From the NCBI RefSeq assembly GCF_014699005.1, contig NZ_JACWZY010000022.1:62001-126000 (forward strand): 64,000 nt of DNA, given 5' to 3'. Below, piece by piece: positions 21,225-48,120 of this stretch. This stretch comes from Spirosoma profusum. GTDB taxonomy: Bacteria; Bacteroidota; Bacteroidia; Cytophagales; Spirosomataceae. Position 1 is the stretch's first letter. Each line of letters begins with the position of its first letter. The notes under the pieces were generated by a model, which ran no database searches, was not told the origin of the DNA, and saw nothing but the letters and a program-made list of their open reading frames with translations. Made by a program: the position numbers and the translations under genes.

Positions 21225-21233
21225 TACGTTGGT

Positions 21234-21989: not shown

Positions 21990-22014
21990 TTGATAAATAA
22001 CATGAATTTGTGGC

Positions 22015-22075
22015 AGTATTTTTTGTCATCCTTCAGCACCGGCCGCCCGGTTGCATCAGGATGACAAAAAATACT
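22015..22075. repeat. REP-like palindrome, family A copy 4
   Basis: A perfect 18-bp stem (22015-22032 and 22058-22075) with core AGTATTTTTTGTCATCCT and a GC-rich 25-nt loop containing CCGGCCGCCCGG. It lies between two genes of one transcription unit (22085 and 21989), so it may reduce downstream expression or protect RNA ends. Confidence 0.85.
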
Positions 22076-22084
22076 ATTCGTTAC

Positions 22085-22762: not shown

Positions 22763-22786
22763 GGGTAATAGGAATCAGATGACAGA

Positions 22787-24289: not shown

Positions 24290-24349
24290 GGCTGAATCGG
24301 TTGTCTGGTTATATAAGATTCTCGCTTATTACTCGTAGAAATCAACCTG

Positions 24350-25630: not shown

Positions 25631-25777
25631 AATTGTTGCGAAATGATAATGGCTACTGAATCAGCCCAGTAATGCCAATTCTGAATGAAGCAAACTTAAC
25701 CTGAATACGTATCAACTGCCTGTATTTTTCGGTGGATAACTGATACTATTCTTCAGAAGGGCCAGCGAACAGGGTAT

Positions 25778-26440: not shown

Positions 26441-26448
26441 AATCAGCG

Positions 26449-27909: not shown

Positions 27910-27968
27910 CGGGATTAACAGGCTATTTGACTACGTTGCTCATTCACTGACAATATGTTACGTTATTT

Positions 27969-28059
27969 TCTTTGACATGCTGACGAAGGAAGTATCTTAA
28001 AGCATCCAAATGAATTAGTAGGGAAACGTTAAGATGCTTCGTTCCACAGCATGACAAAA
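27969..28059. repeat. REP-like palindrome, family A copy 5
   Basis: Imperfect arms of about 30 nt (TTTGACATGCTGACGAAGG and its counterpart near 28030-28058) with GTCATGCTG instead of GTCATCCTG. It lies between the HisD-like gene and the propeller gene inside the susC operon. Confidence 0.75.
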
Positions 28060-28064
28060 TCGCT

Positions 28065-29360: not shown

Positions 29361-29387
29361 GAATTGTCGGCTGTGATTTTGTAAGAG

Positions 29388-30875: not shown

Positions 30876-30899
30876 TTCGATAATGAGTTGGAAGGCGAC

Positions 30900-33800: not shown

Positions 33801-34127
33801 TACATCTGCTTCGAGCGCTACGTTAATCTGCGTGTTATTACCGACAACAATCTCCTTGCTTTTGTAGCCGATAAACGAAAAAATAAGGCTTGTACTTCCG
33901 TCCGGGACTGTAATCGTAAACATTCCTCTGGAATCTGTCGTGGTTCCGGTAATGGTTCCTTTCACCTGAATGTTAACGCCCGGCAACAGATCATTTTTGT
34001 CGTCGGTTACCTTTCCAGATACTTTTACACTTGCCTGACCCAGCGCAAACTGCGCAAAAAAGCACAGTAGCGTTAGCATGACGGTAGCCTTCCCTAAAGT
34101 AAGTTTAAATAAAATTTTATTTTGCAT
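30900..34127 (-). CDS. SusC/RagA-family TonB-linked outer-membrane transporter
   Basis: About 1075 residues from the ATG at 34127 (MQNKILFKLTLGKATVML, a signal peptide). The more distal in-frame start at 34232 would place the likely promoter inside the gene and is rejected. Order: signal peptide, carboxypeptidase-D-like domain (VSGKVTDDKNDLLPGVNIQVKG), TonB box region near LKEVLVVGYG, plug (ASALQGNIPGLRV, SIYGARASNGVIIVETKSGK), then the 22-strand barrel. No STN domain is present, so it is not a direct anti-sigma signaller. It heads the long minus-strand operon. Confidence 0.92.
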   Translation of the reverse strand: MQNKILFKLTLGKATVMLTLLCFFAQFALGQASVKVSGKVTDDKNDLLPGVNIQVKGTITGTTTDSRGMFTITVPDGSTSLIFSFIGYKSKEIVVGNNTQINVALEADVASLKEVLVVGYGSQSRETVSTSIAKLNNKVFQNLTYANPASALQGNIPGLRVQSTSGQPGDPPRVILRGGTSINNPDGASPLYVIDGVIRSDMNNINPNDIESIQVLKDAASTSIYGARASNGVIIVETKSGKAGVMQINYSYNLSSSDVGKLYELADAKDFVYFMRLGLAASGARTPSVLSSLTQSNAGGTANDLTNNTAFTTMYLTPENQNLLSRPADQWGAKWETIADPLDPTKTLIFKGTDFQKTIFRRAYSHDHNLSISGGSEKVKYSMGLGYLKNQGIAINTDYNRLSFNLNGDVQATKTLKFFARLNYANVEDSQVPNVGIVFKNNINTAQTSKYQFEDGSLAPGRLFTNGNPAYYISRYDAKRRRDNYIMVAGANWDIIPGLSFRPQISRVSNTFSNRSFLKSYLNGPLILNTDREAIISRQNVVQNQADAVLTYLKSVRNIHNFEATAGFSYFKSMTDSLSAVGRNAATDLIPTLNASATPWAVSSNESVLLLYGYFGRLNYNFDQKYLLTINGRYDGASNLGAEYKWGFFPGVSMGWNLHREKFWDGIPANLLTLKLRASYGVNGNISGLGNYQAQGAYAVGDRYMGNAAIYNSTLANPALQWERSKTFNVGFDAGIFNNRLSLIVDVYRRVTDNLLTNLALPRSTGFTSILTNLGSLENKGFEVDLNAQILSPQSKLQWNASLNAAYVKTRIIKLPSNGIKNNRIGGINIWDEALGDYDFKGGLQEGGRIGDMFAYQQLGIYATDEAAKAGPTDMLVVGTDKTKSGGDVNWRDIDNNKIIDDRDRIYMGNQFPTWTGGVTNRFSFANFGLTVRFDYTLGHMIYNETKARVLGNFSGQNAISKAVTRSWQKQGDVTDIPRYYWADQNQKQNLWRGNSNYYEPGDFLCLREIALSYNFPTTMTQRIKLSNVRLHLAASNLLYFTKFTGLNPEEGGTDNGRYPVPRNIVFGVQISPNF

Positions 34128-34162: not shown

Positions 34163-34230
34163 TAAGCAAAACTAATGAGTACAAAATCCCTGTTCTGCTA
34201 CTTTTGTGTGCTTTTATAGTACTATTCTTC
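34163..34230 (-). promoter_or_regulatory. susC promoter with AraC-type direct-repeat operator (site P1)
   Basis: Reading on the minus strand: AATAGT (34226-34221), 18 nt, AGTAGCAGA (34202-34194), 19 nt, TAGTTTTG (34174-34167), a TAnnTTTG -7 box 40 nt before the susC ATG. ATAAAAGCA lies between the half-sites. The same order and spacing occur at 34436-34495, 44270-44330 and 48061-48120. The half-sites AAWAGTAnCA are offset 21 bp. Confidence 0.7.
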
Positions 34231-34435
34231 ATAAGTAATCTGTGAGCACCCGAACAACGGAGGAAGGCTAATTTTTACCTGATTTACAGCGTTTGTGAAG
34301 CTTGGATTGAGCGCAATCGGGTAGCTTTTTTAGCAGAAAACAACGATAAACGCCTTTAAAATCATCAACCCGTTTCCCGATAACGTATTGATTCTGTCAG
34401 TTCAGTTAATATGATCTATCTGCTATTCTTTGAAA

Positions 34436-34495
34436 AATAGTGTCATAAAAGCAGTCAATAGTAGCAGACTTAAACTGACGGGAACTTTAGTTTTG
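34436..34495 (+). promoter_or_regulatory. Sialidase-unit promoter with AraC-type operator (site P2)
   Basis: AATAGT 34436-34441, 18 nt, AGTAGCAGA 34460-34468, 19 nt, TAGTTTTG 34488-34495. ATAAAAGCA at 34445-34453 is identical to P1, as is GTAGCAGA. The two AATAGT copies (34436 and 34457) are 21 bp apart. A leader of about 100 nt follows before the ATG at 34604. Confidence 0.7.
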
Positions 34496-34603
34496 CTTTA
34501 AGTCAAGATTCTATCATTACGTTCTTGTTATTCTGAACGAACGCTGCTTATCAATAACAGGAAGCCATTCTTTAACTACAATCCTTAGCCCGAATCGCTA
34601 CTC

Positions 34604-35806
34604 ATGATCTCAAAAAAAAATACGCTCGGTTTTCTTTGGTTTCTTTCTTACCTGATTTCGCTTTGTACTACGTCCGTCGCGAAAGACGTAGCGTTTGCTT
34701 TTCGGCCCGATAGTATACCCGGAGTCCGCAAGCTGAAAGATTTGATCATTTATAAGGATAGTGTGTTCTTTTCCGCATTTCCCTCGATCGTTAAACGTAG
34801 TAACGGCGAGCTTCTTCTCGCTTTTCGGCGGGCACCAGACCGTAAGGGTTTTGGCGAAAAAGGCACTAACCATGTCGATCCGAATAGCTATCTGGTCGGC
34901 CTTCGATCGAAAGATGGCGAGAACTGGCCCAAAGAACCCGAACTGATCTATGCTCACGCATTTGGTGGTTCACAGGACCCGTGTCTGTTGCAGTTGAAAA
35001 ATGGGGATATTCTCTGTGCCAGCTACGGGTGGGCGTTTGTCCGGCCTGACGGAATTCCTAACTTAAAAAAGCCTTACTTCGAGACGAGCGGAGCCATTTT
35101 TCTGGGCGGTTATCTGGTTCGCTCAACCGATGGCGGCAAAAGCTGGCAGGGGCCGATATACCCTCCGCATCTTCCGGCTGAATTAAATTATAGCGCCCTC
35201 GGCGAACCACTTCCCCCCGCTAACCGAGGGGCTTTATACGAAGGTAAAAGCGGACGTATTTACTGGGTTGTCGTAGCTAATGATCAGAAGGGGCCATATA
35301 AATCGTCAAACTATTTACTTGTTTCGGACGACAAAGGGCTTACCTGGAAATACGAAAGCGTAGTAGCCACTGATGATAAAGCGTCATTTAACGAAGCCTC
35401 GGCTTACGAAACACCGAAGGGTAATATTGTGGCTTTCTTACGCACAGCTAACATGGACGATCAAGCCTGTATTGCTCGCTCAACGGACGGCGGAAAAAGT
35501 TTTAAATGGGAAAAAATGGGCTTTCAGGGCCATCCGTTGCAAGCGCTACGTTTGCCTGATAACCGTGTATTGCTCGTTTATGGCTATCGGCATAAACCGT
35601 ACGGAATCCGCGCCCGAATTCTGAATGCGGAATGTACCGATTTTGCCACAGCCCCCGAAATGACCCTTCGTGAGGACGGTGGTGGCTACGATATTGGCTA
35701 TCCCTGGTCAGTACAGTTGGATAAAAACCGGGTATTGGTTGTCTATTACTATAATATCGATAACAAGACACGACATATCGCCGGAACAATTCTGGAAATC
35801 AAGTAA
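34604..35806 (+). CDS. Exported sialidase-like (BNR/Asp-box) glycosidase
   Basis: 400 residues with a signal peptide (TLGFLWFLSYLISLCTTSVA). Six-bladed propeller features: FPSIVKRSNGELLLAFRR near the start with an Arg usable for the carboxylate triad, and Asp-box motifs STDGGKSW, SDDKGLTW and STDGGKSF. It resembles the sialidase superfamily (GH33-like), but related propellers act on other sugars, so sialic acid is not proven. It is the first gene of a plus-strand unit divergent from susC and shares the P1/P2 promoter block, so it is likely the exoenzyme of the locus. Confidence 0.78.
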   Translation: MISKKNTLGFLWFLSYLISLCTTSVAKDVAFAFRPDSIPGVRKLKDLIIYKDSVFFSAFPSIVKRSNGELLLAFRRAPDRKGFGEKGTNHVDPNSYLVGLRSKDGENWPKEPELIYAHAFGGSQDPCLLQLKNGDILCASYGWAFVRPDGIPNLKKPYFETSGAIFLGGYLVRSTDGGKSWQGPIYPPHLPAELNYSALGEPLPPANRGALYEGKSGRIYWVVVANDQKGPYKSSNYLLVSDDKGLTWKYESVVATDDKASFNEASAYETPKGNIVAFLRTANMDDQACIARSTDGGKSFKWEKMGFQGHPLQALRLPDNRVLLVYGYRHKPYGIRARILNAECTDFATAPEMTLREDGGGYDIGYPWSVQLDKNRVLVVYYYNIDNKTRHIAGTILEIK

Positions 35807-35843
35807 GTACATTCTGCTACGTATTAGTTTTCACTACGTTCAA

Positions 35844-36782
35844 ATGAAGTTAATACATTCCTTTTGGGGAATTCTTTTCCTTATGATAGCCACAGAAAGA
35901 AGTGCCGCTACGTCATCTGTAAAGCCAGACTCACTACGTCAGGTATGTCTACTGGAATTAAGGAATCTGCTTCATACGCAAACTGGCTGGATTAAAGTAC
36001 ATGCTGCCGAATATCTGCTCTGGGCGAATGAACCAGCGAGTGTTCGGGAGGTGTATTTAGAGGAATTACGTCGCTTCGAAAACGAATCGCCCTATCGGAT
36101 CGGAATCTGGCGGGTTTTGGCACAGGCCGCAACAGATACAGCCGAAAAAAATAAATGGATTGTACGTATCACGACCGCTTTTATAAATCCCGACGGTCCA
36201 GATCGGGTCCATGCTGCCGAAAGTCTGGCAAAGCTTGGCGTCTCGCCAATGAGCCTTGACCGTAAAGTAACTCAGGAGGCACTGGTCAGCCCTAATGGAG
36301 CGTTGGCACTGTATACTCTTTGGGGCACTACGTTATCTGACGACGCTACGTCTGTTACGTCGAAACGTAGCAAATTTCTGGAAATGGCTTTGAACCAGCA
36401 TGAAGACGTAGCAATACGTCGGTTGAGTGCTTTTATATTACGTCGGCTGGGCGATTTGAACGTAGCAGACTGGACTAAATTGGCAAATGCTACGTTAATA
36501 GAACCCGTTTCGTCTGGTATTCGGGTCAATCTTCTCCACGCTGCAATCGTAACTAGTCCAGCAAGTGAAAAGCAAACGATACCTTACTATCAGCTTCGTA
36601 CAGAGCTTCTTGCCGTTCATTCGACTTCGCTTACCAGCGACCTGCTGGAGTTGATTGCGGCCTTATCACAAAAAGGCGAATCCACCGACGTAGTGGTTTT
36701 GCTTCCGTACCTAAAACATGAGAACGCCGATGTGCGCGCTGGAGCAGCATACGCCGTTTTGAAGATTATTCAGAGAAAATAG
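35844..36782 (+). CDS. Exported HEAT-repeat-like helical protein
   Basis: 312 residues from the ATG at 35844 (MKLIHSFWGILFLMIA), a signal peptide; a longer frame from 35670 runs inside the sialidase gene and is rejected. The mature part is a run of helical pairs with HAAEYLLWANEP, HAAESLAKLGV, IRRLSAFILRRLGD and VRAGAAYAVLKII, the pattern of HEAT or PBS-type repeats. It probably scaffolds or binds partners at the envelope. It follows the sialidase-like gene by 37 nt and ends 1 bp into a strong terminator. Its coding sequence is especially rich in ACGTA motifs. Confidence 0.7.
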   Translation: MKLIHSFWGILFLMIATERSAATSSVKPDSLRQVCLLELRNLLHTQTGWIKVHAAEYLLWANEPASVREVYLEELRRFENESPYRIGIWRVLAQAATDTAEKNKWIVRITTAFINPDGPDRVHAAESLAKLGVSPMSLDRKVTQEALVSPNGALALYTLWGTTLSDDATSVTSKRSKFLEMALNQHEDVAIRRLSAFILRRLGDLNVADWTKLANATLIEPVSSGIRVNLLHAAIVTSPASEKQTIPYYQLRTELLAVHSTSLTSDLLELIAALSQKGESTDVVVLLPYLKHENADVRAGAAYAVLKIIQRK

Positions 36783-36824
36783 AAGTCGCCCGGTACAATG
36801 ACAAAATTGTGCCAGGCGACTTCT
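36781..36824. terminator. Bidirectional terminator between HEAT and AraC genes
   Basis: 19-bp arms AGAAGTCGCCCGGTACAAT and ATTGTGCCAGGCGACTTCT with a 6-nt loop. Pairing is perfect but for one mismatch and one wobble. It overlaps both stop codons of the convergent genes. Confidence 0.75.
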
Positions 36825-37692
36825 ACCGAATGATCAACGTTTTTCGGTAATCGCTGGGCGTCATCCCTTTCAATTTTTTGAACTGTCGATTGAAATTTGC
36901 CAGGTTGTTGAAACCGCATTCGTAAGCTACTTCCACAATGTTACGGTCGTGTTCGGAAAGCAATTTACAGGCGTGGCCAATTCTGACCGTCGTCAGGTAT
37001 TCGACAAAAGTTACCCGGAACTGCTCCTTGAAAAAATTACAAAATGCCGTAACACCCATATTTCCGACTGCCGCGATTTCTGACAGGCTGATATCCTTAT
37101 CAAAATTCTGCATGATGTAGCCCGTAATTTTTTTGAATCGGTCGGAGGCACCGTACTGAAAGTTTTGCACAAACCGTGGGCTGGCTAAAAAGTCGTATTC
37201 TGTCGTATTGGACATGATATCGAATATCTGCAACAGCGCCGACAACCGTGGCAGACCATTCATAGCGGGCATCTGTTTGATCAGCGTTATGATTTTTTGC
37301 CGCGTTTCTCCATACAGAACCAACCCCCGATCCGCCAGTTTCAATACCTTCCGAAACTCCTTCATTTCAGGAATATTCATAAAAAATTCCCCCAAAAAAT
37401 CGTCTGTAAAATGGATGACGAGTGCATCCGCTTTATGCGTGGCCTGCCGCTGTAAATAGATTGGGTCATTAACCCAAACATGGGGCAGTAACGACCCCAT
37501 AAAAACCAGATCGTCTTTTTGAAAGTAACCGATATGGTCGCCAACCATCCGTCTGCCCGTACTTTCGTTTATCAGAACAAACTCATAGTGAGGGTGATAG
37601 TGCCAGGGAGCGGGAAAGAAATCCCCTGTTTCCCGAAAAACGATAAACGATTTGTCGACATCCTGAGGCAGATGAACTTCAACCGCTTTCAT
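36823..37692 (-). CDS. AraC-family regulator with N-terminal cupin domain
   Basis: 289 residues: cupin sensor (about 20-150, WHYHPHYEFVLINESTGRRMVGDHIG) and a C-terminal pair of helix-turn-helix motifs (DISLSEIAAVGNMGVTAFCNFFKEQF and YECGFNNLANFNRQFKKLKGMTPSDYR). It lies in the middle of the island between two regulated units and is the natural candidate to bind the direct-repeat sites P1-P4, whose 21-bp spacing and overlap with the -33 region fit an AraC activator. The inducer is probably a small sugar-like molecule. Its own upstream region shows no clear copy of the site. Confidence 0.85.
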   Translation of the reverse strand: MKAVEVHLPQDVDKSFIVFRETGDFFPAPWHYHPHYEFVLINESTGRRMVGDHIGYFQKDDLVFMGSLLPHVWVNDPIYLQRQATHKADALVIHFTDDFLGEFFMNIPEMKEFRKVLKLADRGLVLYGETRQKIITLIKQMPAMNGLPRLSALLQIFDIMSNTTEYDFLASPRFVQNFQYGASDRFKKITGYIMQNFDKDISLSEIAAVGNMGVTAFCNFFKEQFRVTFVEYLTTVRIGHACKLLSEHDRNIVEVAYECGFNNLANFNRQFKKLKGMTPSDYRKTLIIR

Positions 37693-37893
37693 AGACTTTG
37701 AAGCTGTTTAAACTTTAGTAATAATCCTTATTAAAACGTCAATTTCGAGTAGTTCGAACGGCGCGAATGAGCAATAAACACGATAATAAGGGTACAAACA
37801 AAGCTATGATTGAAATCTGAATTTTACTTCAGTTGACGTATGAGGAATGGATTTATACTCTTCCTGAGAAGCAGTTTTTGAATCGGGAAGAAA

Positions 37894-39249
37894 TCAGAGC
37901 TGTTGCAGGAGTTTTAACAAATGCTCCCGAATTTGTTCCTCGGAGCCGGAGACCAGACAACTACATCGGCACCGCCAGGTTTCATAACCTCCTTTAGCCA
38001 TCTCCGAAGCAGGCGGAACGTAGCCGACATTTCCATTGGCCAGGCTAATTGTAAAATAGCTCTTTCCTTTTAACTGCTTTTTCAGGTATAATCCGGTTTC
38101 AGAAAAGAATTCACCCGCCAGGGCTCCAATCAAACCTGTGCCAATTTTAATAGCCTGAACAGGTGCCTTTTGCTGATCTGGATACTCATTGAGCAACAAT
38201 TGCTCGCGGGCATAAATTTGCCGTAACCCTTCCTGATTCGGAATAATTGTCTCGTAACGACTTGTCGAAACAATCTGACGGGCCCGTTGCAATTCATCCG
38301 CGCTGGGTTTGGAAGTTGCTACGTCTACTAAGTCATACAGCGATTTTAATTCGGAATTGGTCTGCCATTGAAGGCTAGAAACAGACTCAACCACGCGTTT
38401 AGCCAGATCGGAGCCAATTAACTTACTTTTTTCAAATAGTTGGTTTGGATAATCTTTAGTACCCAGGAAATCCCAGATGTTTACGTCGCCACTGGTTCCA
38501 TTACTCATCATGCCAACAAACTGGTCATCCGTTTGCAATAGCTCTGCAAGAGTGTTGGAAAATACGCCAAAATAATCGGCGGAGATTGTTCCATCTTCCC
38601 AGTCGCCGACGTAGTGCAGTGAGTAATTGCCCAAAATGCTAATCCAGGAATTGTCCAGACCTTTTACTGCCAGATAACTGAGTTCAGGATCAGTTGGAGC
38701 ATTTCCTGCTTCGATCAGCGATTCAGCACCGAATGGGTTGGTTTTCACCTGATCAAATCCATCCGAAACGGGATTAGGCAACGGATAATCAGCTGCCATT
38801 TTATACCGCCGACATAGCACGTGTTCCGGCGCATCGACCGAACCGAATGCAATCTGAGCAGGTTTTAAACGTCTCAACGCCAACTCTACAGATTTTACGA
38901 TCAGGCTGGGAAGTTTTTTGCGATAAGCAGGGTCCATGCTTCCCAGATGTACATCTGCCACCGATCCGGCTGCATGTGTATGGGTGCTGGAGATTAAAAC
39001 ATTGGCAACTGGAATACCTGTTTTAGCCAAAATCTCAGCTTTCACTACGTCCAGAAAATCCTGTGTCATGACACAGATATCGACCACCACTATGGCCACA
39101 AACGTATCATTACGCTTCAGAACCAGCGCCTTGGCATATAAATCATCGTGGATATACGTAGCGTAATGGGTAATAAAATCGCCGTTTATCCGGGTGCCTA
39201 AGGGTGGAGTCGTTTCGACACGCGCAGCGCCTGCTTGAAATTGAGTCAT
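37894..39249 (-). CDS. Cytoplasmic ceramidase-like hydrolase
   Basis: 451 residues, neutral/alkaline non-lysosomal ceramidase N-terminal domain family, without a signal peptide (starts MTQFQAGAARVETTPPLG). Zinc-site histidines in SSTHTHAAG; MSNGTSGDVNIWDF and ANGNVGYVPPASEMAKGGYE are typical blocks. A homologue with a signal peptide is encoded at 22787, so one family is used both outside and inside the cell. It is the last gene of the 44232-37894 minus-strand run, after a palindrome of family B. Likely amidase or esterase on a cytoplasmic intermediate. Confidence 0.75.
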   Translation of the reverse strand: MTQFQAGAARVETTPPLGTRINGDFITHYATYIHDDLYAKALVLKRNDTFVAIVVVDICVMTQDFLDVVKAEILAKTGIPVANVLISSTHTHAAGSVADVHLGSMDPAYRKKLPSLIVKSVELALRRLKPAQIAFGSVDAPEHVLCRRYKMAADYPLPNPVSDGFDQVKTNPFGAESLIEAGNAPTDPELSYLAVKGLDNSWISILGNYSLHYVGDWEDGTISADYFGVFSNTLAELLQTDDQFVGMMSNGTSGDVNIWDFLGTKDYPNQLFEKSKLIGSDLAKRVVESVSSLQWQTNSELKSLYDLVDVATSKPSADELQRARQIVSTSRYETIIPNQEGLRQIYAREQLLLNEYPDQQKAPVQAIKIGTGLIGALAGEFFSETGLYLKKQLKGKSYFTISLANGNVGYVPPASEMAKGGYETWRCRCSCLVSGSEEQIREHLLKLLQQL

Positions 39250-39360
39250 GGGAATAGTTTGTTTCGGCTGATGAAGTAGTGGGCGTTTATCAACGCCCTT
39301 TGCTACGTTAACGTGAGCTACTGATAATCTATAGGTTAACCAATTGGTTTACAATAAGTG

Positions 39361-39449
39361 CTGACGCATAGGGCTTCGACAGGCTCAGCCTGACAGTCCA
39401 CTCAAAGTTGTTGACTCAAGTCGATTTGTCAGGCTGCCCTATGCGTCAG
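39361..39449. repeat. Palindrome family B copy 1
   Basis: Outer arms CTGACGCATAGGGC and GCCCTATGCGTCAG, inner arms GCCTGACA and TGTCAGGC, with an unpaired TTCGACAGGCTCA on the left that has lost its partner. The second copy (55666-55760) keeps both. CATAATTCACGTT follows at 39467-39479, right before the dipeptidase stop. Confidence 0.8.
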
Positions 39450-39483
39450 CAACACGCTAACAGGTCCATAATTCACGTTTACG

Positions 39484-40563
39484 TTAAGCCCAGGCTTTTC
39501 TCAAAAAACGGAGCCAGTTTTGGCTAAAGATGTTATCAATGTCCGCATCAGAATAGCCTCGTCGCGACAGAATTTGCTCGAACTTTTGCAAATCAGCAAT
39601 CGAGTTCAAATCCCAGGGCGATTGTTCGGTTCCGAAAATACCGTCCAGGTCGCTGCCAATGGCTACGTGGTTGCTGTTACCTGCGATCTGGCAAATGTGA
39701 TCCCAATGGTCGACCAGATTTTCCAGTCGAATATTCAACTGCCACGGGTCCGAAACCATGTCGATAAAGCGGATATCCATCGCCCAGCAATCGAGCATTC
39801 CACCAATAACAGCTCCTCGTTCGATTAGTCGTCGGATTTGATCATCAGTGAGTTGACGCTGGTTAGGTACAATCTTGCGGACGTTGTGATGGCTCGCCCA
39901 GATAGGCCCTTCGTAGAAATCAAAAACCTGATCAAAACCTTCATCGGTCAGGTGGGTCATGTCCAGAATCATATTCAGTTTGGACATTTCCTTCATCAGC
40001 TCAAAACCCTTTGGCGTTAACGGGCCTTCTGATTTCGTTCCGGGCGCATACCGGCCGGGACCAAAATGCGACAATCCAACTGCCCGTAACCCATACTCAT
40101 AGGCTCGATGCAGATACGAAACATCGACCAGCGAATCTGCCCCTTCCAGACTTAAAATATAGCCAATCGGCTTCGTTTCATCAGCGATCGAATCATCATT
40201 CCAGAGCGCCAGATGGGTTTCCAATGCCTGGAGGTTCGTAATCTGTACCATTTCGCCCAAAGCCTCCATCTCACGATACCAGGCGAGTTGAGCCTGCGTC
40301 ATGGCCCATGCCTGCTGTGGAGAACGCCATCCCGTCAGTGCGTTACCAAATGGCGCGTGTCGAGCTAACTGAGTGGCCACCACCAGGCCAATCCGACCTT
40401 TCCGTAGCTCCGGCAAACAAACCGTACCTTTTCCACGGTCATTTTTATCGGTCATGTTCATTTCCAGTTGCCGAATCTCCTGCAAGGGCCGGGTTAGATC
40501 CCGATTCCATTCGATGGCATTCATGGACAAATCCAGATGAGCATCAACGATCAGCCTTCTCAT
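39484..40563 (-). CDS. Membrane dipeptidase (M19) family amidohydrolase
   Basis: 359 residues of the renal-dipeptidase type. Metal-site residues: H8-L-D10 in VDAHLDLS, E in LSLEGADSL, H in MTHLTDEGF and SHHNVRKIVPN, and GSDLDGIFG near the C-terminus. No signal peptide is seen, so it should act in the cytoplasm. M19 enzymes cut dipeptides, often with a D-residue or modified amino acid at the C-terminal side. Placed with an aminotransferase and RidA, it suggests that the imported substrate carries an amide-linked amino acid. Gap of 8 nt to the upstream dehydrogenase-like gene. Confidence 0.85.
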   Translation of the reverse strand: MRRLIVDAHLDLSMNAIEWNRDLTRPLQEIRQLEMNMTDKNDRGKGTVCLPELRKGRIGLVVATQLARHAPFGNALTGWRSPQQAWAMTQAQLAWYREMEALGEMVQITNLQALETHLALWNDDSIADETKPIGYILSLEGADSLVDVSYLHRAYEYGLRAVGLSHFGPGRYAPGTKSEGPLTPKGFELMKEMSKLNMILDMTHLTDEGFDQVFDFYEGPIWASHHNVRKIVPNQRQLTDDQIRRLIERGAVIGGMLDCWAMDIRFIDMVSDPWQLNIRLENLVDHWDHICQIAGNSNHVAIGSDLDGIFGTEQSPWDLNSIADLQKFEQILSRRGYSDADIDNIFSQNWLRFLRKAWA

Positions 40564-40571
40564 CGCTACGT

Positions 40572-41552
40572 CTAATTGACTTCGTTTTTTACCGGCTCAA
40601 CTACCTCTTCTGACTGGGAATCGAAGGGATACTTTTCCATCAACTCGCTGATCTGAAAGCTGAATTGGCGGGTGAGATTCGCCCATTTTTCCGGTTCACC
40701 AGGTTCATAGCCATAAAATCCTTTTCCGGCGTCCATTCCTACGTCATTCGCCTGAATTCGTTGCGTGAAGAAATCAGGAAGGTTTTGGCTGGTCGATAAC
40801 TCTGGGTTTAAGTCCTTCATAACCATGCCATAAGCATACGTTCCCATTAAGTCCATGTAACGAAGATTCCCCGCAAACGGCAGATAGTACCCAGCGTCAT
40901 TGCGGCACGCCCGATCAATGTCTTCTACAGATGCGTAGCCATTTTCAACCAAATAAAACGCTTCCCGAATCAGGGCAGCCATCAATTTCATACGTACTCC
41001 CGTTTCGCGCTGAATCACATACGGGTCTTTGCCCCAACGCTGCCGGGCCATTGTTGCTACGTAGTCAATGCAGGATTTGCGAGTAGACTGATTGGCAATA
41101 ATTTCCAGAAAGAACGTAGTATGGGCCGGTTCCGTCCAATTGACGCCGATGATACGTCCGGGTTCTGCTACGTTCTCTTGTAGGGAACGTAACGGAATGC
41201 TTTCTGTATTAACCGCAATGATCGTATTGGCTGATATATTCTTTTCTAATCCGCTGATTGCCTGTTTCTTGACAGCCAGATTCTCTTCTGTAATGAGAAT
41301 CGCCAGATCAATATCAACGCTAAAATCAGGCTCTTTTCGGATGATTAAATTACTGTATGCATAGTTGTTGCCTTCATAGGTACTACTATCCAGTCTGTGG
41401 CGATCCGTAATCGTTTGGGCTTTTGCTACGTCAGTTGTACTAAGCATTACTGTAAATCCTGCTTTTTGCAAACAGGCAGCAATACTGTACGTCAACTTAT
41501 CGCTTCCCAGCAGAAGAATCGTTTCCTTTGGCGAGCCCACTACGTTCATCAT
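40572..41552 (-). CDS. 3-hydroxyacyl-CoA-dehydrogenase-like protein, degenerate active site
   Basis: 326 residues, clearly homologous to the gene at 42863. The nucleotide-binding loop is LLLGSDKLTYSIA instead of GxGxMG, and the catalytic histidine of the HxxxP motif is replaced (N138 in GVNWTEPAH; the paralogue has H144 in GIHWAEPAF). The helical C-terminal domain, with DIDRACRNDAGYYLPFAG and GMDAGKGFYGYEPGE, is intact. It may be a non-catalytic partner of the paralogue, or use another mechanism. It sits 12 nt downstream of the aminotransferase gene. Confidence 0.78.
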   Translation of the reverse strand: MMNVVGSPKETILLLGSDKLTYSIAACLQKAGFTVMLSTTDVAKAQTITDRHRLDSSTYEGNNYAYSNLIIRKEPDFSVDIDLAILITEENLAVKKQAISGLEKNISANTIIAVNTESIPLRSLQENVAEPGRIIGVNWTEPAHTTFFLEIIANQSTRKSCIDYVATMARQRWGKDPYVIQRETGVRMKLMAALIREAFYLVENGYASVEDIDRACRNDAGYYLPFAGNLRYMDLMGTYAYGMVMKDLNPELSTSQNLPDFFTQRIQANDVGMDAGKGFYGYEPGEPEKWANLTRQFSFQISELMEKYPFDSQSEEVVEPVKNEVN

Positions 41553-41564
41553 GATGTGGTTAAC

Positions 41565-42866
41565 TTAGTTGATTTTCTGGAGCACCTTGCGGGCTGTATC
41601 GATAGCCAGGTGGATGTCTTCTTCGGTATGCACGGCACTAATATACCACAAGCCACGCCCGATAATTCGAACGCCTTCGTCGTGCATGGCCGCAATAAAT
41701 TTGCCCAATTTCGCTTTATCCACAGCAAGGGTATCCCGGTAATCGGTCATTTTTTCTAACGTAGTAAAGCTGATGCAAAACATCGGGCCCGGCCCTTCTA
41801 CCAGCAACGGCTGACCCGTTTCGGAGGCCGCCTGCTTCAGTCCTTCCATCAGTATTTTGCCAAGTCGGAACATGCGCTCGTAGGGTTGCTCATGTTCAAG
41901 AACCGTTAACGTAGCGAGTGCTGCCGCTACCGTCGGATTACCGGCGTTCATCGTTCCGGCATGAATTACTTTTGCCTGTTCGATTAATTGCATCCACTCG
42001 TATTTGCCCACAATGGCGCTGATCGCGTAACCACTGGCAATGGCTTTTGCGAAGATGGACATGTCAGGCGTGATGCCAAAATACTGTTGAGCGCCACCCA
42101 GCGAAAGTCGAAATCCGGTGATGACCTCATCGAAAATCAACGCAATACCATATTCCGTACAGATTTCCCGCAATCCTTCGAGGAAACCCGGCTTCGGTTC
42201 GATACAGCCGTTGTTACACATGATGGGCTCCGTAATAATCGCAGCTATTTCCTCGCTACGTTCCGCAACTGTTTTCCTGACCAGTTCCAGATCATTCCAG
42301 GGCAGAATAATAAAATCGTTTTCTACACCTTCCGGTAGCCCTTGTGTCCACGGAAAAACGGCCGGATTTTCCCGGCTACCCAAAGCCTCAACCGAAGGTG
42401 CTGAAATGCCCCAGCAGACGTTATCCAGCCAGCCGTGGTAATGCCCTTCAAAACGTAAGAATTTGTTACGTCCTGTTTTCGCTCTGGCTACCCGAAAAGC
42501 CGTCTGAACGGCTTCTGAACCATCCAGACAAAAGCGCATCAGCTCGGCCGAAGGAATGATTTGCTGCAACTTCTCCGCCAGTTCTATTTCACGAATGTGC
42601 TGACCAGCAAACAGTTGCCCTTTCTGTGAGTATTCCGTAACAGCCTGCAAAACCTCTGGATGCGAGTGGCCTAAAATCAGAGGTCCCTGGCTTAAGGTAA
42701 AGTCAAGGTATTCGTTTCCATCGACATCGTAAATACGGCTTCCCTGTCCATGCGTGTAGAAAAGGGCGTGCGGATGATTGTATTTCCGAAATTCTGAAGA
42801 AACACCGCTTGCCAACACTTTTTTGGCCCGTTCCAGCAACGTCGCAGACTCGTTGTATTGTCTCAT
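41565..42866 (-). CDS. Class III aminotransferase, glutamate-1-semialdehyde-aminomutase-like
   Basis: 433 residues, PLP-dependent fold type I. PLP lysine K274 in SIFAKAIASG, DEVITGFR at 246-253 for ring stacking, FCLDGSEAVQTAFRVARA for the phosphate, and a GHYHGW loop as in GSA aminomutases. Catabolic enzymes of this branch act on beta- or omega-amino groups. It is flanked by two hydroxyacyl-CoA-dehydrogenase-like paralogues and overlaps the upstream one by 4 nt (ATGA), so products may pass between transamination and dehydrogenation. Not part of a heme operon, so hemL function is unlikely. Confidence 0.83.
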   Translation of the reverse strand: MRQYNESATLLERAKKVLASGVSSEFRKYNHPHALFYTHGQGSRIYDVDGNEYLDFTLSQGPLILGHSHPEVLQAVTEYSQKGQLFAGQHIREIELAEKLQQIIPSAELMRFCLDGSEAVQTAFRVARAKTGRNKFLRFEGHYHGWLDNVCWGISAPSVEALGSRENPAVFPWTQGLPEGVENDFIILPWNDLELVRKTVAERSEEIAAIITEPIMCNNGCIEPKPGFLEGLREICTEYGIALIFDEVITGFRLSLGGAQQYFGITPDMSIFAKAIASGYAISAIVGKYEWMQLIEQAKVIHAGTMNAGNPTVAAALATLTVLEHEQPYERMFRLGKILMEGLKQAASETGQPLLVEGPGPMFCISFTTLEKMTDYRDTLAVDKAKLGKFIAAMHDEGVRIIGRGLWYISAVHTEEDIHLAIDTARKVLQKIN

Positions 42867-43834
42867 TTTAGGTTTAGTTTGTCAGCAGAATAGTCGGCAG
42901 CGAGCTGACAGATATCCAGATTAAACCGGGTGAATGCTTCCTCCCACTGTTTGCCTTCTTCACCCTCATAGGGGTAAAGACCCTTGTTATTATGAACACC
43001 CCTGGCATCCTGTTGTACCATCTGCTGCATCAGCCTGGGTACAGTCGTTGAGTTACTTAATTCAGGAAAAACGGTGTTCAGAATCGTGTCAAAATCCTTG
43101 AAACCCGAATAGTCCATCCGGCGAAAAATACCCATCAACGTCATCCAGGAACCGGCGTCGTAGCGAAACGCTTTATCGAGGTCTTCGGGAGTGGCATTTC
43201 CCTGTTCGAGCTGATGGAAAATTTCGCGGTAAACAGCGTACATCAACCGATTTGTAATGAACCCGCGAATGTCCTTTTTAAGCAAGGTCGGTTCCTTCCC
43301 CCAGCAATGAGCAAGATCGAGAATATGGTTGGCTTTTTCGGGTGAAGTCAGATTTCCACAGGTGATTTCAAGGAAGCGGGTCATAAAGGCGGGTTCCGCC
43401 CAGTGAATACCCAGAAATCGTTCGGGGTAGCTAACGTAACGCTGGAGGGTGCTGATTGGGATGGCCGACGTATTACTGCTAACGATACAATCCGGGCTCA
43501 CAACTGAGGTAATTTTCTGATAAACAACCGATTTGATATCAACATCCTCAATCACACATTCGATCACTACGTGGCAGGATTTCAGGATGGCGTAGTCTTC
43601 GGAAATCGTCAGCAATTGCCAGTAGTTTTCAGCATTTGCAATCAACCCGGCTTCTTCGCACTGCTTTAGCTGATTAAAAATTCGCTCATCAGCTTCCAGA
43701 GAATCCGCCGGAATTGGTGCGACCGCTTTCACCGGATGGCCGGCAATGAGCAAAGCGGCAACGATACTACTTCCCATAAGCCCCAAACCGACGACGCCAA
43801 TGTGGATCTCTGCTACGTTGAACGGGCTACTCAT
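42863..43834 (-). CDS. 3-hydroxyacyl-CoA dehydrogenase family protein
   Basis: 323 residues with intact signatures: Rossmann loop VVGLGLMGSSIV (15-24), SNTSAIPI at 120-127 and catalytic H144 in GIHWAEPAF with a following Glu (FLEI). The C-terminal domain carries DLDKAFRYDAGSWMTLMG. The family includes true 3-hydroxyacyl-CoA, L-gulonate and carnitine dehydrogenases, so a small beta-hydroxy acid could be the substrate. It overlaps the aminotransferase gene by 4 nt and follows ridA by 11 nt. The more divergent copy is at 40572. Confidence 0.82.
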   Translation of the reverse strand: MSSPFNVAEIHIGVVGLGLMGSSIVAALLIAGHPVKAVAPIPADSLEADERIFNQLKQCEEAGLIANAENYWQLLTISEDYAILKSCHVVIECVIEDVDIKSVVYQKITSVVSPDCIVSSNTSAIPISTLQRYVSYPERFLGIHWAEPAFMTRFLEITCGNLTSPEKANHILDLAHCWGKEPTLLKKDIRGFITNRLMYAVYREIFHQLEQGNATPEDLDKAFRYDAGSWMTLMGIFRRMDYSGFKDFDTILNTVFPELSNSTTVPRLMQQMVQQDARGVHNNKGLYPYEGEEGKQWEEAFTRFNLDICQLAADYSADKLNLK

Positions 43835-43845
43835 CAGGTGTGGAT

Positions 43846-44232
43846 TCAGGCGTTTGGAAGTCTTACGATGCAGTCGATTTCAACTTTGAGGTTTTCGGCC
43901 AGCACGGATTGTACCGTCGTTCGGGCGGGTTTTATGCCGGGAAAATAGGATGCATAAACGACATTGTATCGGTCGAATTCATCGATATTGGCCAGGTGAA
44001 CCGTGCATTTCACTACGTTCTCCATTGAGCCGCCCGCAGCCTTAATAATGGCCGCAATGTTGTCTAATGTTCGAGCAGTTTCCTCTTCAATCGTGCCAAG
44101 AACGAACTGCGAGGTTTTAAAATCAACAGCCGCTTGTCCACTTACAAACAGGAAATTATCGACGATAACGCCATCGGAATAAGCGCCGGTTGCAAAATCA
44201 GGATCTCGATCTGGATGGACTACCTTTTTCAC
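43846..44232 (-). CDS. RidA-family enamine/imine deaminase
   Basis: 128 residues of the YjgF/YER057c/UK114 family: FLFVSGQAAVDF, ETARTLDNIAAIIKAAGGSMENVVKCTVHLA and KPARTTVQ, where the Arg binds the carboxylate of the 2-imino acid. It forms trimers that hydrolyse reactive enamine or imine intermediates made by PLP enzymes, here presumably the aminotransferase two genes on. It is the first gene of the five-gene unit running to 37894 and lies directly behind the P3 promoter at 44270-44330. Confidence 0.88.
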   Translation of the reverse strand: MKKVVHPDRDPDFATGAYSDGVIVDNFLFVSGQAAVDFKTSQFVLGTIEEETARTLDNIAAIIKAAGGSMENVVKCTVHLANIDEFDRYNVVYASYFPGIKPARTTVQSVLAENLKVEIDCIVRLPNA

Positions 44233-44269
44233 GAAAAAGAAAATATTATTTTATGAAAGATCTGCTTTA

Positions 44270-44330
44270 CAAAAGTACGTACCGCCGTAATAAGTGTTCT
44301 TCTACTTTCTCATGGATTACTAATACTATT
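44270..44330 (-). promoter_or_regulatory. ridA-operon promoter with AraC-type operator (site P3)
   Basis: On the minus strand: AATAGT (44330-44325), 18 nt, AGTAGAAGA (44306-44298), 20 nt, TACTTTTG (44277-44270). The spacing matches P1 and P2 within one base, and the box lies 38 nt before the ridA start. The inner ATAAAAGCA is not kept. Confidence 0.6.
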
Positions 44331-44386
44331 TTTTAGTAGGCTTTTAGGATTGCTACGTTGAATTCGGCGGTATTAGTACCAGGCTG

Positions 44387-44435
44387 TTTGTCATGCTTCC
44401 GCTCCGGCGGCCCGGCTTCGTCAGCATGACAAAAA
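44387..44435. repeat. REP-like palindrome, family A copy 6
   Basis: Arms TTTGTCATGCT and AGCATGACAAA with a GC-rich loop CCGGCGGCCCGG; the GTCATGCT form links it to copy 5. It lies between the SDR stop (44462) and the P3 promoter, so it may end the upstream operon. Confidence 0.8.
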
Positions 44436-44461
44436 CCTACTAATGCTGATTTGGCAACGTA

Positions 44462-45241
44462 TCAGGCATTCAGCCCACCATCCATCAGAATGTTTTCTCC
44501 ATTGATGTAAGCACCAGCGTCAGAAGCCAGCAGCACAACCAGCCCTTTGATATCGTCCTGATTCGCCATGCGACGTAGTGGTACTTTCTTACAGTAATTT
44601 TCCAAAAACCTTTCCGGCTGGTTGTTAAATAATCCGCCGGGGCTGATGCAGTTAAAGCGGATATTTTTACCGGCGTTCATCTGCGCCATATACCGTGTGA
44701 GGTTAATCAGACCGGCGTTATGGAAAAAATAATCGGGGGGAAGATCGCCCATGTTTACGGTGCCATCATAGTTGGATAAATCAGGGCCGAACATACCCAT
44801 CATCGACGCAATATTAATCACGCTTCCTCCCCCACTCTGAACAATCAAATCTGTCATTTCGCGGAGCAAATCCATCATACCCGTCGCATTGACCTGCATC
44901 GATTCGTCGAACTGGCTCATCGGTGCGTTGTAGCCTTTCATCGGGCGAGAAACGGCATTGTTTACAAATCCGTCGAGTTTCCCAAATATCCGTTGAACCT
45001 CGTTCTTTAAAGCCATCACCGATACGTGACTGGCCTGGTCTACCTCCATCGGATGCACATCTAAACCACGATCTGTAAATAATTTCGCCGTTGCTTCGGC
45101 CGATTTTACATCTCGAGACGTAGTGATTACAGTAGCATCAGCTTCGGCAAGGCCTTCTACGATGCATTTGCCGTAATTGCCTGATCCTCCAGTCACTAGG
45201 ATGACTTTTTCTTTTAAACTGAGCAGTTCTTTTACGTTCAT
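44462..45241 (-). CDS. SDR-family protein lacking the catalytic lysine
   Basis: 259 residues, SDR fold: GGSGNYG at 18-24, NNA at 94-96, S146 in INIASMMG, and Y171. The YxxxK motif reads YFFHN (codons TAT TTT TTC CAT AAC), so the catalytic lysine is Asn175. The downstream ISPGGLF and GENILMDGG segments are normal. It may bind nucleotide without hydride transfer, use a different proton relay, or be a recent loss-of-function variant. It is the last gene of the 48013-44462 unit with aldolase, aldo/keto reductase and Gfo/Idh genes. Confidence 0.82.
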   Translation of the reverse strand: MNVKELLSLKEKVILVTGGSGNYGKCIVEGLAEADATVITTSRDVKSAEATAKLFTDRGLDVHPMEVDQASHVSVMALKNEVQRIFGKLDGFVNNAVSRPMKGYNAPMSQFDESMQVNATGMMDLLREMTDLIVQSGGGSVINIASMMGMFGPDLSNYDGTVNMGDLPPDYFFHNAGLINLTRYMAQMNAGKNIRFNCISPGGLFNNQPERFLENYCKKVPLRRMANQDDIKGLVVLLASDAGAYINGENILMDGGLNA

Positions 45242-45256
45242 CTTGCCTGGATTCCC

Positions 45257-46174
45257 TTATAGATTAATTACCGCTCCACCCTGCTCCTGACTTTCTTGGG
45301 CAGCAATGAGTACGCGCATAAGATTCACTGTTTTATCGAACGAAATCCGGGGTTTTCCTTCTTCTACGGATCGCAGAAATTCGATGAGGTTGTCCCGAAA
45401 CATGGAATAGGAATTTCGGATGTCGATCAATTTCCAGCCTTGTTGGCCAAAAAGAGAAATCTGGAACGTACCACTGATATCGTTGAATAAATGGAGCATG
45501 ACGACCAGCCCATCTTCCAGTATAAGCTGTACGATTTCTTTGTCTGGCTCGCCAATGTGCCGAACCGAAACAGGCTGTGGATCACCGAGAATACCAAAGA
45601 TACCTTCGAGTAGATGAATGCCGTATTTTTTCCAATCCTTCTTACCAACCGCCGTTACCAGTTCCAGTTTGCCGAATGATTTTAACTCCTGGCGCGCAAT
45701 TCGGCACTCATTGGCATACCGCATGGACGAACACGACATAATGAATTTTCCGGCAGCGGATTGCGCTGAAAACCAATCGAGGTCTTCCGTAGAATACGTA
45801 AGCGGTTTGTCAATAAAAATTGGTATGCCAGCTTCAATAAACGGCTGGGCCATCTCCTTATGCTTTTCCGGATCGTCGCGGGCGAGAATAATGGCGTCGA
45901 CTTCGCCAATCATGTCTTCCAGCTTTTCAACTGTGTTGGCAATGCCAGCCCCTTTAGCAATGCTGCTGGCGATGGCCGGTTCCTGCGCCCAAACATGGGT
46001 CACTTTTGCGGTGTCTATCCCTACCGTATCACGGTTGGCGTTGAGGTATTCAGCAACGGCCGGATAACCGATTCGGATAATTTCATCCCCGTCAAATACG
46101 CCATTAATAATGGCCGACCAGGAGTAAGGATGGGCGTTTCCGGGACTCATCCCGATGATTCCAATTTTTAGCAT
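45257..46174 (-). CDS. Gfo/Idh/MocA-family oxidoreductase
   Basis: 305 residues. N-terminal Rossmann half with a relaxed loop (GIIGMSPGNAH) and DKP at 122-124 (FIDKPLT), the place of the EKP signature whose lysine takes part in catalysis. The C-terminal half is the alpha/beta substrate domain. A histidine near residue 188 (YGIHLLEGIFG) is in the usual active-site position. These enzymes oxidise or reduce sugars, inositols and related polyols with NAD(P). Its position between an aldo/keto reductase and an SDR supports sugar or polyol breakdown. Confidence 0.82.
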   Translation of the reverse strand: MLKIGIIGMSPGNAHPYSWSAIINGVFDGDEIIRIGYPAVAEYLNANRDTVGIDTAKVTHVWAQEPAIASSIAKGAGIANTVEKLEDMIGEVDAIILARDDPEKHKEMAQPFIEAGIPIFIDKPLTYSTEDLDWFSAQSAAGKFIMSCSSMRYANECRIARQELKSFGKLELVTAVGKKDWKKYGIHLLEGIFGILGDPQPVSVRHIGEPDKEIVQLILEDGLVVMLHLFNDISGTFQISLFGQQGWKLIDIRNSYSMFRDNLIEFLRSVEEGKPRISFDKTVNLMRVLIAAQESQEQGGAVINL

Positions 46175-46221
46175 CGTACGGATTGACGTAGTGATGGTTG
46201 CTACATCCTATACTAATTCAT

Positions 46222-47178
46222 TTATTTTAACCAGCCCATGTTGTGCCAATGGGTCATGTTCAAAAAATCAGGGTCGGGATACGCTAACTGTGTGGCCTGA
46301 CGTAGCAGTTTCTCGTCCAGATAAAACCCATTGGCCGTACGTAGCGCTTTATGCAGGTATTCTTTTTTGTCGATACCAATCAACACCGACGAAACGCTGT
46401 CGAACGATAAGGCAAACTGAGTAGCCAGCGTCGGTAAATCCGATAAATTTTCGTTCAGCAAACGCCGGTAGTTCTGGATATGCGTTTCCACTTGTGACAA
46501 TGCCGGATGCAGATTTTTTCCACGATCACTCAGCAAACCCTTCATCAAAACAGAGCGAATTACCAGCCCGATTCCATGTTGCGCTGCCTTGTCAAAACAC
46601 TGGCTATGCGTTTGATCCATTAGATTAAACGGCAACTGAATAACATTCCAATTGCCTGATTCAATCGCTAATTCAGTTTCTGCCGTAAAGTACGTAGAGG
46701 CACCCGTTGCCCGAATCAAACCCTTTTCTTTCAAACCAGCAAAGGTATCCGCAATAACTGCTCTCGATAAGATTTCCGCGTCGACCTGATGCAGCATGTA
46801 CACATCGACGTAGTCCATCTTTAGCGCAGCTAGACTTTCCTGGAGTGATGTTTCAATAATCGTTTTCAACTGACGATCAGCGGGCAATTGTCCGTCCTTA
46901 CCTCGCAGATGTTTGCATTTAGTGGCTAGTACGATTTCTCCTCTACGTCCTTCAAAGGCGTTGCCCATGATGGTTTCGCTGGCTCCATACAGTCGCGCTG
47001 TATCGAAAAAATTAATGCCTTTGTCCAGTGCTTCGTGAAGCAAATCAATAGCTTCCTGCTGAGAAAGCATATCGGCCTCACTCTCTACACCAATGCCGTA
47101 GGGAACGCCGATTTCAACACCGCCAAAAGCAATTTCAGATACCGAAAGGCCGGTTGTTCCCAGAGGTCTCTTCTTCAT
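46222..47178 (-). CDS. Aldo/keto reductase
   Basis: 318 residues with the AKR tetrad D59, Y64 (FFDTARLYGASE), K87 (LATKC) and H130 (DVYMLHQVD). The start RPLGTTGLSVSEIAFGG is typical of bacterial AKRs that act on aldoses and small aldehydes. It could reduce the aldehyde released by the neighbouring HpaI-type aldolase. Gap of 28 nt to the aldolase gene and 47 nt to the Gfo/Idh gene, all in one direction. Confidence 0.87.
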   Translation of the reverse strand: MKKRPLGTTGLSVSEIAFGGVEIGVPYGIGVESEADMLSQQEAIDLLHEALDKGINFFDTARLYGASETIMGNAFEGRRGEIVLATKCKHLRGKDGQLPADRQLKTIIETSLQESLAALKMDYVDVYMLHQVDAEILSRAVIADTFAGLKEKGLIRATGASTYFTAETELAIESGNWNVIQLPFNLMDQTHSQCFDKAAQHGIGLVIRSVLMKGLLSDRGKNLHPALSQVETHIQNYRRLLNENLSDLPTLATQFALSFDSVSSVLIGIDKKEYLHKALRTANGFYLDEKLLRQATQLAYPDPDFLNMTHWHNMGWLK

Positions 47179-47206
47179 TAGGCTAAGCGTTCAGTGATAC
47201 GTAGGC

Positions 47207-48013
47207 TTATTTTTCGAGATAAGACGTAGATGATACGTTGGTAGACGTAGTGCCAAACGCCTTGACCAAATCCTGACAGTAATTTTTTAATCCTACTACG
47301 TCGGCCCCTATACTGACGAATTGATACCCCATTGACAGCAGTTCGGCCAGATTACCCGGACCGCCAACCGTTCCGGCAAATTTTCCGTGTTTTCGGGCTA
47401 CCTCAGCTACTTTGATACGTGTTTCAAGCAGTTTCGGGTGATTCCATTGTCCGGGTGCGCCAATGCCCTGACTGAAATCGCCGGGTCCGAAAAACAGCAT
47501 ATCATATCCTTCGAGGGCGGCAATGGCGTCGAGTTCTTCCAGTGGTTCCGGGTCTTCGATCTGGAGAATCACGAAACGCTGTTCGTTAGCTTCCTTCAGA
47601 TACGTATCGAAATCCAGTGCCGTATATGCACCATCCGCATTGCCACCGTCAATCGGTCGCCGGCCAACGGGGTGGAACCGGGTCATGTCCACTATTTTTT
47701 TAGCCTCTTCCAGACTCATCAGATGCGGAACCATAATTCCGGTAGCATCGAGTTCAAGGGGGCGGATATAATCGCTGTAACTCCCCCGAGATACACGTAC
47801 CAGCAAATCAGCCTGTTGCGATTTGGTCGCCCAGACATGCGCGGCTACGGTCGACCAGTCCTGCCCGATATGTTCCTGATCAATCCAGACGCAATCGAAC
47901 CCTGAAATCGCTGCGAGTTCAGCTACTCTTGGATCTGCCAGGTTTATCTTAAAACAGCTTACCATTTCTCCGGATCTGAGTTTCTTCAGAACACGACTTT
48001 CGCGCATTTTCAC
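47207..48013 (-). CDS. HpcH/HpaI-family class II aldolase
   Basis: 268 residues, TIM-barrel aldolase of 2-keto-3-deoxy acids. Active-site features: DQEH with H48, R74 in LVRVSRG, metal ligands E153 (LQIEDPE) and D179 (FFGPGDFS). Members split 2-keto-3-deoxy sugar acids into pyruvate and an aldehyde, for example 2-keto-3-deoxyrhamnonate to lactaldehyde. As first gene behind promoter P4, followed by an aldo/keto reductase, Gfo/Idh and an SDR, it would be the lower end of a pathway in which a sugar is oxidised to an acid, dehydrated and cleaved. The substrate is inferred only by analogy. Confidence 0.85.
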   Translation of the reverse strand: MKMRESRVLKKLRSGEMVSCFKINLADPRVAELAAISGFDCVWIDQEHIGQDWSTVAAHVWATKSQQADLLVRVSRGSYSDYIRPLELDATGIMVPHLMSLEEAKKIVDMTRFHPVGRRPIDGGNADGAYTALDFDTYLKEANEQRFVILQIEDPEPLEELDAIAALEGYDMLFFGPGDFSQGIGAPGQWNHPKLLETRIKVAEVARKHGKFAGTVGGPGNLAELLSMGYQFVSIGADVVGLKNYCQDLVKAFGTTSTNVSSTSYLEK

Positions 48014-48060
48014 GGTTCCAGAATGATTATTGGTGGATTCACTACGTGGTAAAGGTGACT

Positions 48061-48120
48061 CAAAGGTATGTAGCCCGACTTCCGATTGCTATTACTTTTA
48101 TATCGGTTTATGATACATTT
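48061..48120 (-). promoter_or_regulatory. Aldolase-operon promoter with AraC-type operator (site P4)
   Basis: On the minus strand: AAATGT (48120-48115), 18 nt, AGTAATAGC (48096-48088), 19 nt, TACCTTTG (48068-48061), 48 nt before the aldolase start. ATCATAAA after the first half-site matches GTCATAAAA of P2. This is the weakest of the four sites, but its spacing is exact. Confidence 0.5.

Follow-up and report, generated by a model that had tools for sequence, protein, structure and literature searches.

At araI1-I2 of the araBAD promoter, the AraC protein of Escherichia coli occupies tandem half-sites that are 21 bp apart, the inner of which overlaps the -35/-33 region. We analyzed a 64,000-nucleotide stretch of the Spirosoma profusum genome (contig NZ_JACWZY010000022.1, positions 62,001 to 126,000; this whole stretch is hereafter the window), which carries a gene for an AraC-family regulator (36823-37692) and five operators of the same build, with tandem half-sites 21 bp apart and the inner one at the -33 position. 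In contrast to E. coli AraC, the regulator of the window belongs to another phylum with another sigma factor, and no autoregulatory site is found at its own gene. We consider it highly likely that this protein controls a local regulon through the five operators by class II activation.

Motifs with 21-bp periodicity are reported for the AraC-family RhaR regulators of Bacteroides and other groups (PMC3870299). As in the RhaR regulons outlined in that source, the AraC-type regulator of the window adjoins its catabolic genes; unlike in those regulons, the gene content is a different one and no rhamnose pathway was recognized in the window. The hybrid two-component sensor (HTCS) regulons of Bacteroides thetaiotaomicron are described as having direct-repeat operators whose tandem sites lie on average 21 bp from each other (PMC3878776). 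Among the features set out there, the direct repeats, the 21-bp distance, the SusCD targets and the AraC-type DNA-binding domain are shared with the regulon proposed here. However, the window regulator has 289 aa, only a helix-turn-helix (HTH) domain is recognized in it, and the HTCS domain set (hybrid sensor kinase, receiver and AraC domain) is not found in this protein. Our literature searches on this regulon returned no paper specific to it. The predicted regulon is thus a new one within a known kind, and for a case built on sequence only its support is unusually good.

Operator sites and promoter architecture

An earlier note on this DNA had described a common layout at four promoters, consisting of a 6-base box, N18, a 9-base box, N19 (N20 at ridA) and TAnnTTTG. 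On re-reading, the four layouts (P1-P4, 60-61 bp) are exact to the base in their coordinates and read as claimed. A fifth layout, P5 (25691-25750, minus strand), had been overlooked and surfaced in a matrix scan. The regulator and the five sites are as follows, with E values from the whole-genome search.

36823-37692, minus strand: AraC-family regulator, 289 aa, proposed to bind all five operators
34194-34226, minus strand: P1 operator, two half-sites 21 bp apart, before susC (E 1.5e-4)
34167-34174, minus strand: P1 box TAGTTTTG (full layout 34167-34226)
34436-34468, plus strand: P2 operator, before the BNR (sialidase-like) gene (E 0.006)
34488-34495, plus strand: P2 box TAGTTTTG (full layout 34436-34495)
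44298-44330, minus strand: P3 operator, before ridA (E 4.2e-5)
44270-44277, minus strand: P3 box TACTTTTG, spacing one base longer (full layout 44270-44330)
48088-48120, minus strand: P4 operator, before the HpcH/HpaI aldolase operon (E 0.005)
48061-48068, minus strand: P4 box TACCTTTG (full layout 48061-48120)
25718-25750, minus strand: P5 operator, before the MFS transporter operon (E 5.1e-4)
25691-25698, minus strand: P5 box TAAGTTTG, offset 52 (full layout 25691-25750)

The site matrices and the model R1 were trained without the window sites; the first search expression was derived from the pattern of the earlier note. The first matrix, built from 14 distinct sites of related genomes, assigned scores of 36.5 to P1, 35.3 to P3, 24.9 to P2, 23.4 to P4 and 17.5 to P5, the next value in the window being 9.2 and the best of 15 random 64-kb sequences 10.9. 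With the refined matrix (34 distinct 33-mers) the five sites scored 38.4, 34.9, 28.5, 28.5 and 20.0 (P5); no other match in the window reached 8, and the best of 20 random sequences reached 13.1. R1 is a sequence-only model made from 34 of the 38 distinct relatives' sites, leaving out four: three that lie reversed and without a box before araC, and a box-less match at the edge of locus L061. The earlier note had proposed a genome search for clustering of the motif in the island, and R1 bears this out: the five best matches in the 8.73-Mb host genome (P3, P1, P5, P4 and P2; E 4.2e-5 to 0.006) all lie inside the island, and the sixth has an E value of 0.19 and covers 31 of 41 model positions. 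Since the TAnnTTTG box is not part of R1, it provides an independent control. A box at +52 or +53 accompanies five of five window sites versus none of eight further host-genome matches. Among 35 other genomes of the genus, seven have a match at E ≤0.1, six of these being partial (18-27 positions), and none of the seven has the box, as judged at the best matrix site of each locus.

The operator comprises 33 bp with the consensus AATAGTATCAGA-N9-AAAAGTAGCAGA, in which the two 12-mers are identical at 10 of 12 positions with a period of 21, and TAnnTTTG begins 52 bases (53 in P3) past the first base of the operator. Matrix self-similarity has its maximum at a shift of 21 (1.31, the runner-up being 0.75 at shift 18), in agreement with the claim of equally oriented half-sites 21 bp apart. 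Among the 38 distinct relatives' sites, a TAnnTTT[GA] box stands at either offset in 33 (at +52 in 29 and at +53 in four) and is absent from five. The longer spacing of P3 recurs in four relatives: in the ridA promoters of genomes G107, G139 and G116, and in G132 ahead of a 3HCDH gene.

The promoter consensus of Bacteroides fragilis is given as TAnnTTTG at -7 and TTTG at -33 (PMC7366714). None of the five window sites has TTG in the -33 stretch; among 38 distinct boxed sites, window included, TTG is missing from this stretch in 37 and TTTG in all. Lacking the -33 box, the five promoters are not full consensus Bacteroidota primary-sigma promoters on their own. The overlap of the inner half-site with the -33 region, claimed previously, agrees with its position relative to TAnnTTTG and with the missing TTG, and the operator appears to take over the place of the -33 element.

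Simpler patterns recovered fewer of the sites. A spaced two-half-site pattern with up to three mismatches matched P1, P2 and P3 only in the window (0.01 matches expected from shuffles) and did not pick up P4, the least pattern-like of P1-P4. The word GTAGCA is generally over-represented in the host genome, and thus the GTAGCAGA common to P1 and P2 is on its own weaker evidence than it had appeared. An exact-spacing pattern with the P1/P2-specific ATAAAAGCA middle was rejected: it yielded P1, P2 and one 3-mismatch match in the genome and four matches in the reversed control, and P3-P5, whose middle letters differ, fall outside so narrow a pattern. Its sole match in another member of the genus (G005, locus L004) scores 5.9 with the matrix, lacks a box at the proper distance, and was dropped.

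Co-occurrence of the operator and the regulator gene

The 36823 protein was first sought in 121 genomes of the family, and about 35-37 kb were examined around each of the 15 orthologs found in other genomes (64-85% identity, E 9.2e-125 or better; next best 45%), whose carriers include Dyadobacter, Larkinella and Rhabdobacter. The neighborhoods share with the window genes for RidA, dehydrogenases, aminotransferase, M19 dipeptidase, ceramidase-like protein, aldolase, aldo/keto reductase, GFO-type oxidoreductase, SDR, BNR protein and MFS transporter; the set is incomplete in individual loci, and the P3 gene order is preserved in most of the 15. A strict site expression matched in 12 of the 15 loci, before orthologs of ridA, susC or the BNR gene, and every locus has at least one site with a matrix score of 24 or more. 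A susC gene 75% identical to that of the window also carries the site (locus L168). R1 matches occur in all 15 genomes with best E values of 4.5e-6 to 4.2e-11, the same genomes having supplied R1.

Co-occurrence was then scored in 222 family genomes (ortholog E ≤1e-85, site E ≤5e-4), with stricter filters in the site search that lose weak matches. The ortholog is present in 27 genomes, the site in 29 and both in 26; thus, the site accompanies the ortholog in 26 of 27 genomes, as compared with three of the 195 without it. For ortholog genomes outside the R1 training set, the host excluded, the proportion is 10 of 11. Fisher tests on these counts (2e-29 and 1e-13) are descriptive, the genomes being related. 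Of the 93 site matches, a count that includes the training sites, 85 are no more than 40 kb away from the regulator gene. The distribution is patchy: of its genus, the host (G000) alone figures among the 27 ortholog carriers.

Five site matches are on other contigs of ortholog genomes. The four inspected (in G102, G120, G128 contig C19 and G209) all have the box at +52, and the one in G209 precedes a susCD pair; they look, therefore, like candidate remote regulon members, and the regulons of G102, G120 and G128 may have such members. In these three genomes the sites off the island contig are strong as well as boxed (loci L162, L163 and L164).

A set of 80 loci, classed by identity to the regulator, was also scanned within flanks of at most 1.5 kb, counting a site at a score of 14 or more and assigning loci to taxonomic groups by hand. 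Where the ortholog is at least 58% identical (61 loci), the site is present in 38: in 19 of 21 belonging to Dyadobacter (11/11), Larkinella (8/8), Rhabdobacter (0/1) and a Cytophagaceae metagenome-assembled genome (MAG; 0/1), and in 19 of 40 from outside the family (e.g. Cyclobacterium, Lunatimonas, Chitinophaga and a Pedobacter MAG), 12 of these 19 having a site with the box at +52. Loci outside the ≥58% and 51-54% identity classes have the site in three of 16 cases. The reversed-reading control of the 80 loci gave a site in three. A spacing first spotted by eye in a single sequence is therefore shared between genera and, in part, between families.

Several observations weigh against a single regulon governed by the 36823 protein. 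Within the small flanks examined, 23 of the 61 loci with an ortholog of ≥58% identity have no site, nor do any of the three loci at 51-54%. The ortholog of G212 (81% complete) is without a site at the threshold, and three genomes (G200, G109 and G121) have a site without an ortholog; the G109 and G121 matches lack the -7 box and were judged to be chance, and that of G200, inside a related cluster with no TAnnTTTG at +52, is ambiguous. Owing to the relatedness of the genomes, the co-occurrence counts are not independent. The regulator gene of the host is without the upstream site found in most Dyadobacter relatives. P4 and P2 are individually modest (E 0.005 and 0.006), two other genomes of the genus reach a lower E value (0.003, partial), and G034, which has no ortholog, contains a nearly full-length match (E 0.013, matrix score 31.4) with no box. 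Since matches in the genus outdo P2 and P4, the rank of these two alone is indecisive; rank, place and box together decide. The proposal of the earlier note that one regulon stands under the 36823 protein is sustained by the genome ranking, by the contrast between carriers and non-carriers of the ortholog and by the sites before orthologous genes in relatives; binding, activation and an inducer are inferred, and the operon limits are taken from strand and gaps.

Predicted mechanism and alternative explanations

The 36823 protein contains an AraC-type HTH domain (PF12833, E 2.9e-22, residues 207-284; also PF00165). Its label as a cupin protein was not confirmed, as Pfam recognizes the HTH part only and gives no match on residues 1-206; a W-H-x-H motif conserved in the alignment is suggestive only. 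The NFNRQFKK stretch of the second HTH is invariant in 19 aligned relatives, but it is no marker of shared specificity by itself because four of these are at 42-44% identity.

Most likely as a dimer, this protein would bind the tandem half-sites AATAGTATCAGA and AAAAGTAGCAGA, which are separated by two helical turns (21 bp), and the inner half-site would replace the absent -33 element upstream of the -7 box TAnnTTTG. With this element replaced, RNA polymerase would depend on the regulator being bound (class II activation). Some substrate or pathway intermediate would act as the trigger, and the five operons would be turned on together, providing SusCD uptake, the BNR hydrolase, the ridA/aminotransferase/dehydrogenase set, the aldolase and the MFS transporter. 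As relatives mostly carry the site where the neighboring AraC-type gene is present, the island is very probably one switch-controlled unit of a familiar kind.

It is unlikely that the 36823 protein binds the sites as a repressor, or that it has a dual role of the kind known from E. coli AraC. Such a role would be compatible with the reversed box-less site that lies 63-79 bp before araC in nine of 11 Dyadobacter loci (L169-L172, L174-L178) and could serve autorepression. However, the inner half-site at the -33 position and the missing -33 TTG of the five window promoters fit an activator, and the araC gene of the window has no such reversed site: no operator was found upstream of it, the best score in the promoter-near stretch being -7. 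G116 also has a reversed box-less site before araC, and these reversed sites are possible autoregulatory sites; the corresponding position in Larkinella is taken by a boxed site that faces a divergent ridA.

Less probable still is one regulon of five sites bound by another AraC-type protein encoded elsewhere in the genome, although the host has 96 first-look candidates for AraC-like proteins. The site tracks the 36823 ortholog in presence and in location, and less completely so in other families (19 of 40 loci), whereas six genus members in which the closest relative of AraC reaches about 40% identity have no match or one weak partial match (G031). Finally, it is hardly conceivable that the likeness is an artefact of chance, promoter-like A/T bias, the GTAGCA word or a recent local P1/P2 duplication, since, although that word is over-represented and P1 and P2 resemble each other most and are separated by only ~210 bp, the best random scores with both matrices fall below the weakest window site, sites before orthologous genes in relatives rule out the duplication or the word as a full explanation, and the whole-genome ranking with the box control refutes artefact as an explanation of the whole.

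Proposed operons, a possible cassette and genome composition

By strand and gaps, the predicted regulon comprises five promoters and 21 or 22 genes, exceeding the four units noted before. The proposed operons are the following.

25778-34127, minus strand: P1 operon, susC, susD, histidinol-dehydrogenase-like gene, 26449 gene, FISUMP protein
34604-36782, plus strand: P2 operon, BNR protein, open reading frame (ORF) 35670 (no Pfam family)
37894-44232, minus strand: P3 operon, ridA, two 3HCDH dehydrogenases, class III aminotransferase, M19 dipeptidase
44462-48013, minus strand: P4 operon, HpcH/HpaI aldolase, aldo/keto reductase, GFO-type oxidoreductase, SDR
20433-25630, minus strand: P5 operon, MFS transporter, 22787 gene, hexapeptide transferase, PhyH dioxygenase, SDR

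The ORF of susC opens at 34232, upstream of P1, and the ATG at 34127 is the likely start. The MFS transporter gene downstream of P5 occupies 24350-25630. A ceramidase-like gene 234 bp beyond the M19 dipeptidase gene is perhaps a member of the P3 operon. The gap between these two genes contains a perfect 16-nt inverted repeat (39359-39374 and 39436-39451, with 61 nt between the arms), possibly a terminator or a small repeat element; a second inverted-repeat-like stretch, at 44380-44440, was not confirmed on checking. Among ten island proteins compared with NCBIfam, RidA alone passed a curated cut-off (general Rid family).

There is a slight balance in favor of the regulator, its operators and at least five operons moving as one cassette through several Bacteroidota families, marking a conserved catabolic pathway. 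If so, the pathway would include RidA, the aminotransferase, two 3HCDH dehydrogenases, the M19 dipeptidase, the ceramidase-like protein, the HpcH/HpaI aldolase and the PhyH dioxygenase, the SusCD importers of the cassette would be interchangeable, and the operator set would delimit the pathway members, including remote operons in some Larkinella genomes. The operator, with its promoters fixed to the base, offers a testable site for an AraC-type regulator of environmental Bacteroidota and can be used to draw the boundary of a conserved pathway.

Apart from the regulon, the host genome is rich in the word ACGTAGCA, with 5,462 copies in 8.73 Mb versus 223 for the word read backwards; it has the look of an iterated word such as HIP1 or an uptake sequence. 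Copies are also numerous in three other genomes of the genus (1,756 in G006, 2,371 in G033 and 1,625 in G035), and the remaining 32 have 77-479. In the window, ACGTAG/CTACGT was observed 191 times in both orientations against 31 expected, with 164 occurrences falling within the genes on a list of 36 and 26 elsewhere. Nine 20-kb stretches of the host were sampled, of which two are lower in G+C (0.436 in L141, G000:C2:20000-39999; 0.448 in L144, G000:C13:50000-69999) and contain the ACGTAG word 18 and 11 times, respectively, versus 37-59 times in the other seven, as if these two stretches had been recently acquired.

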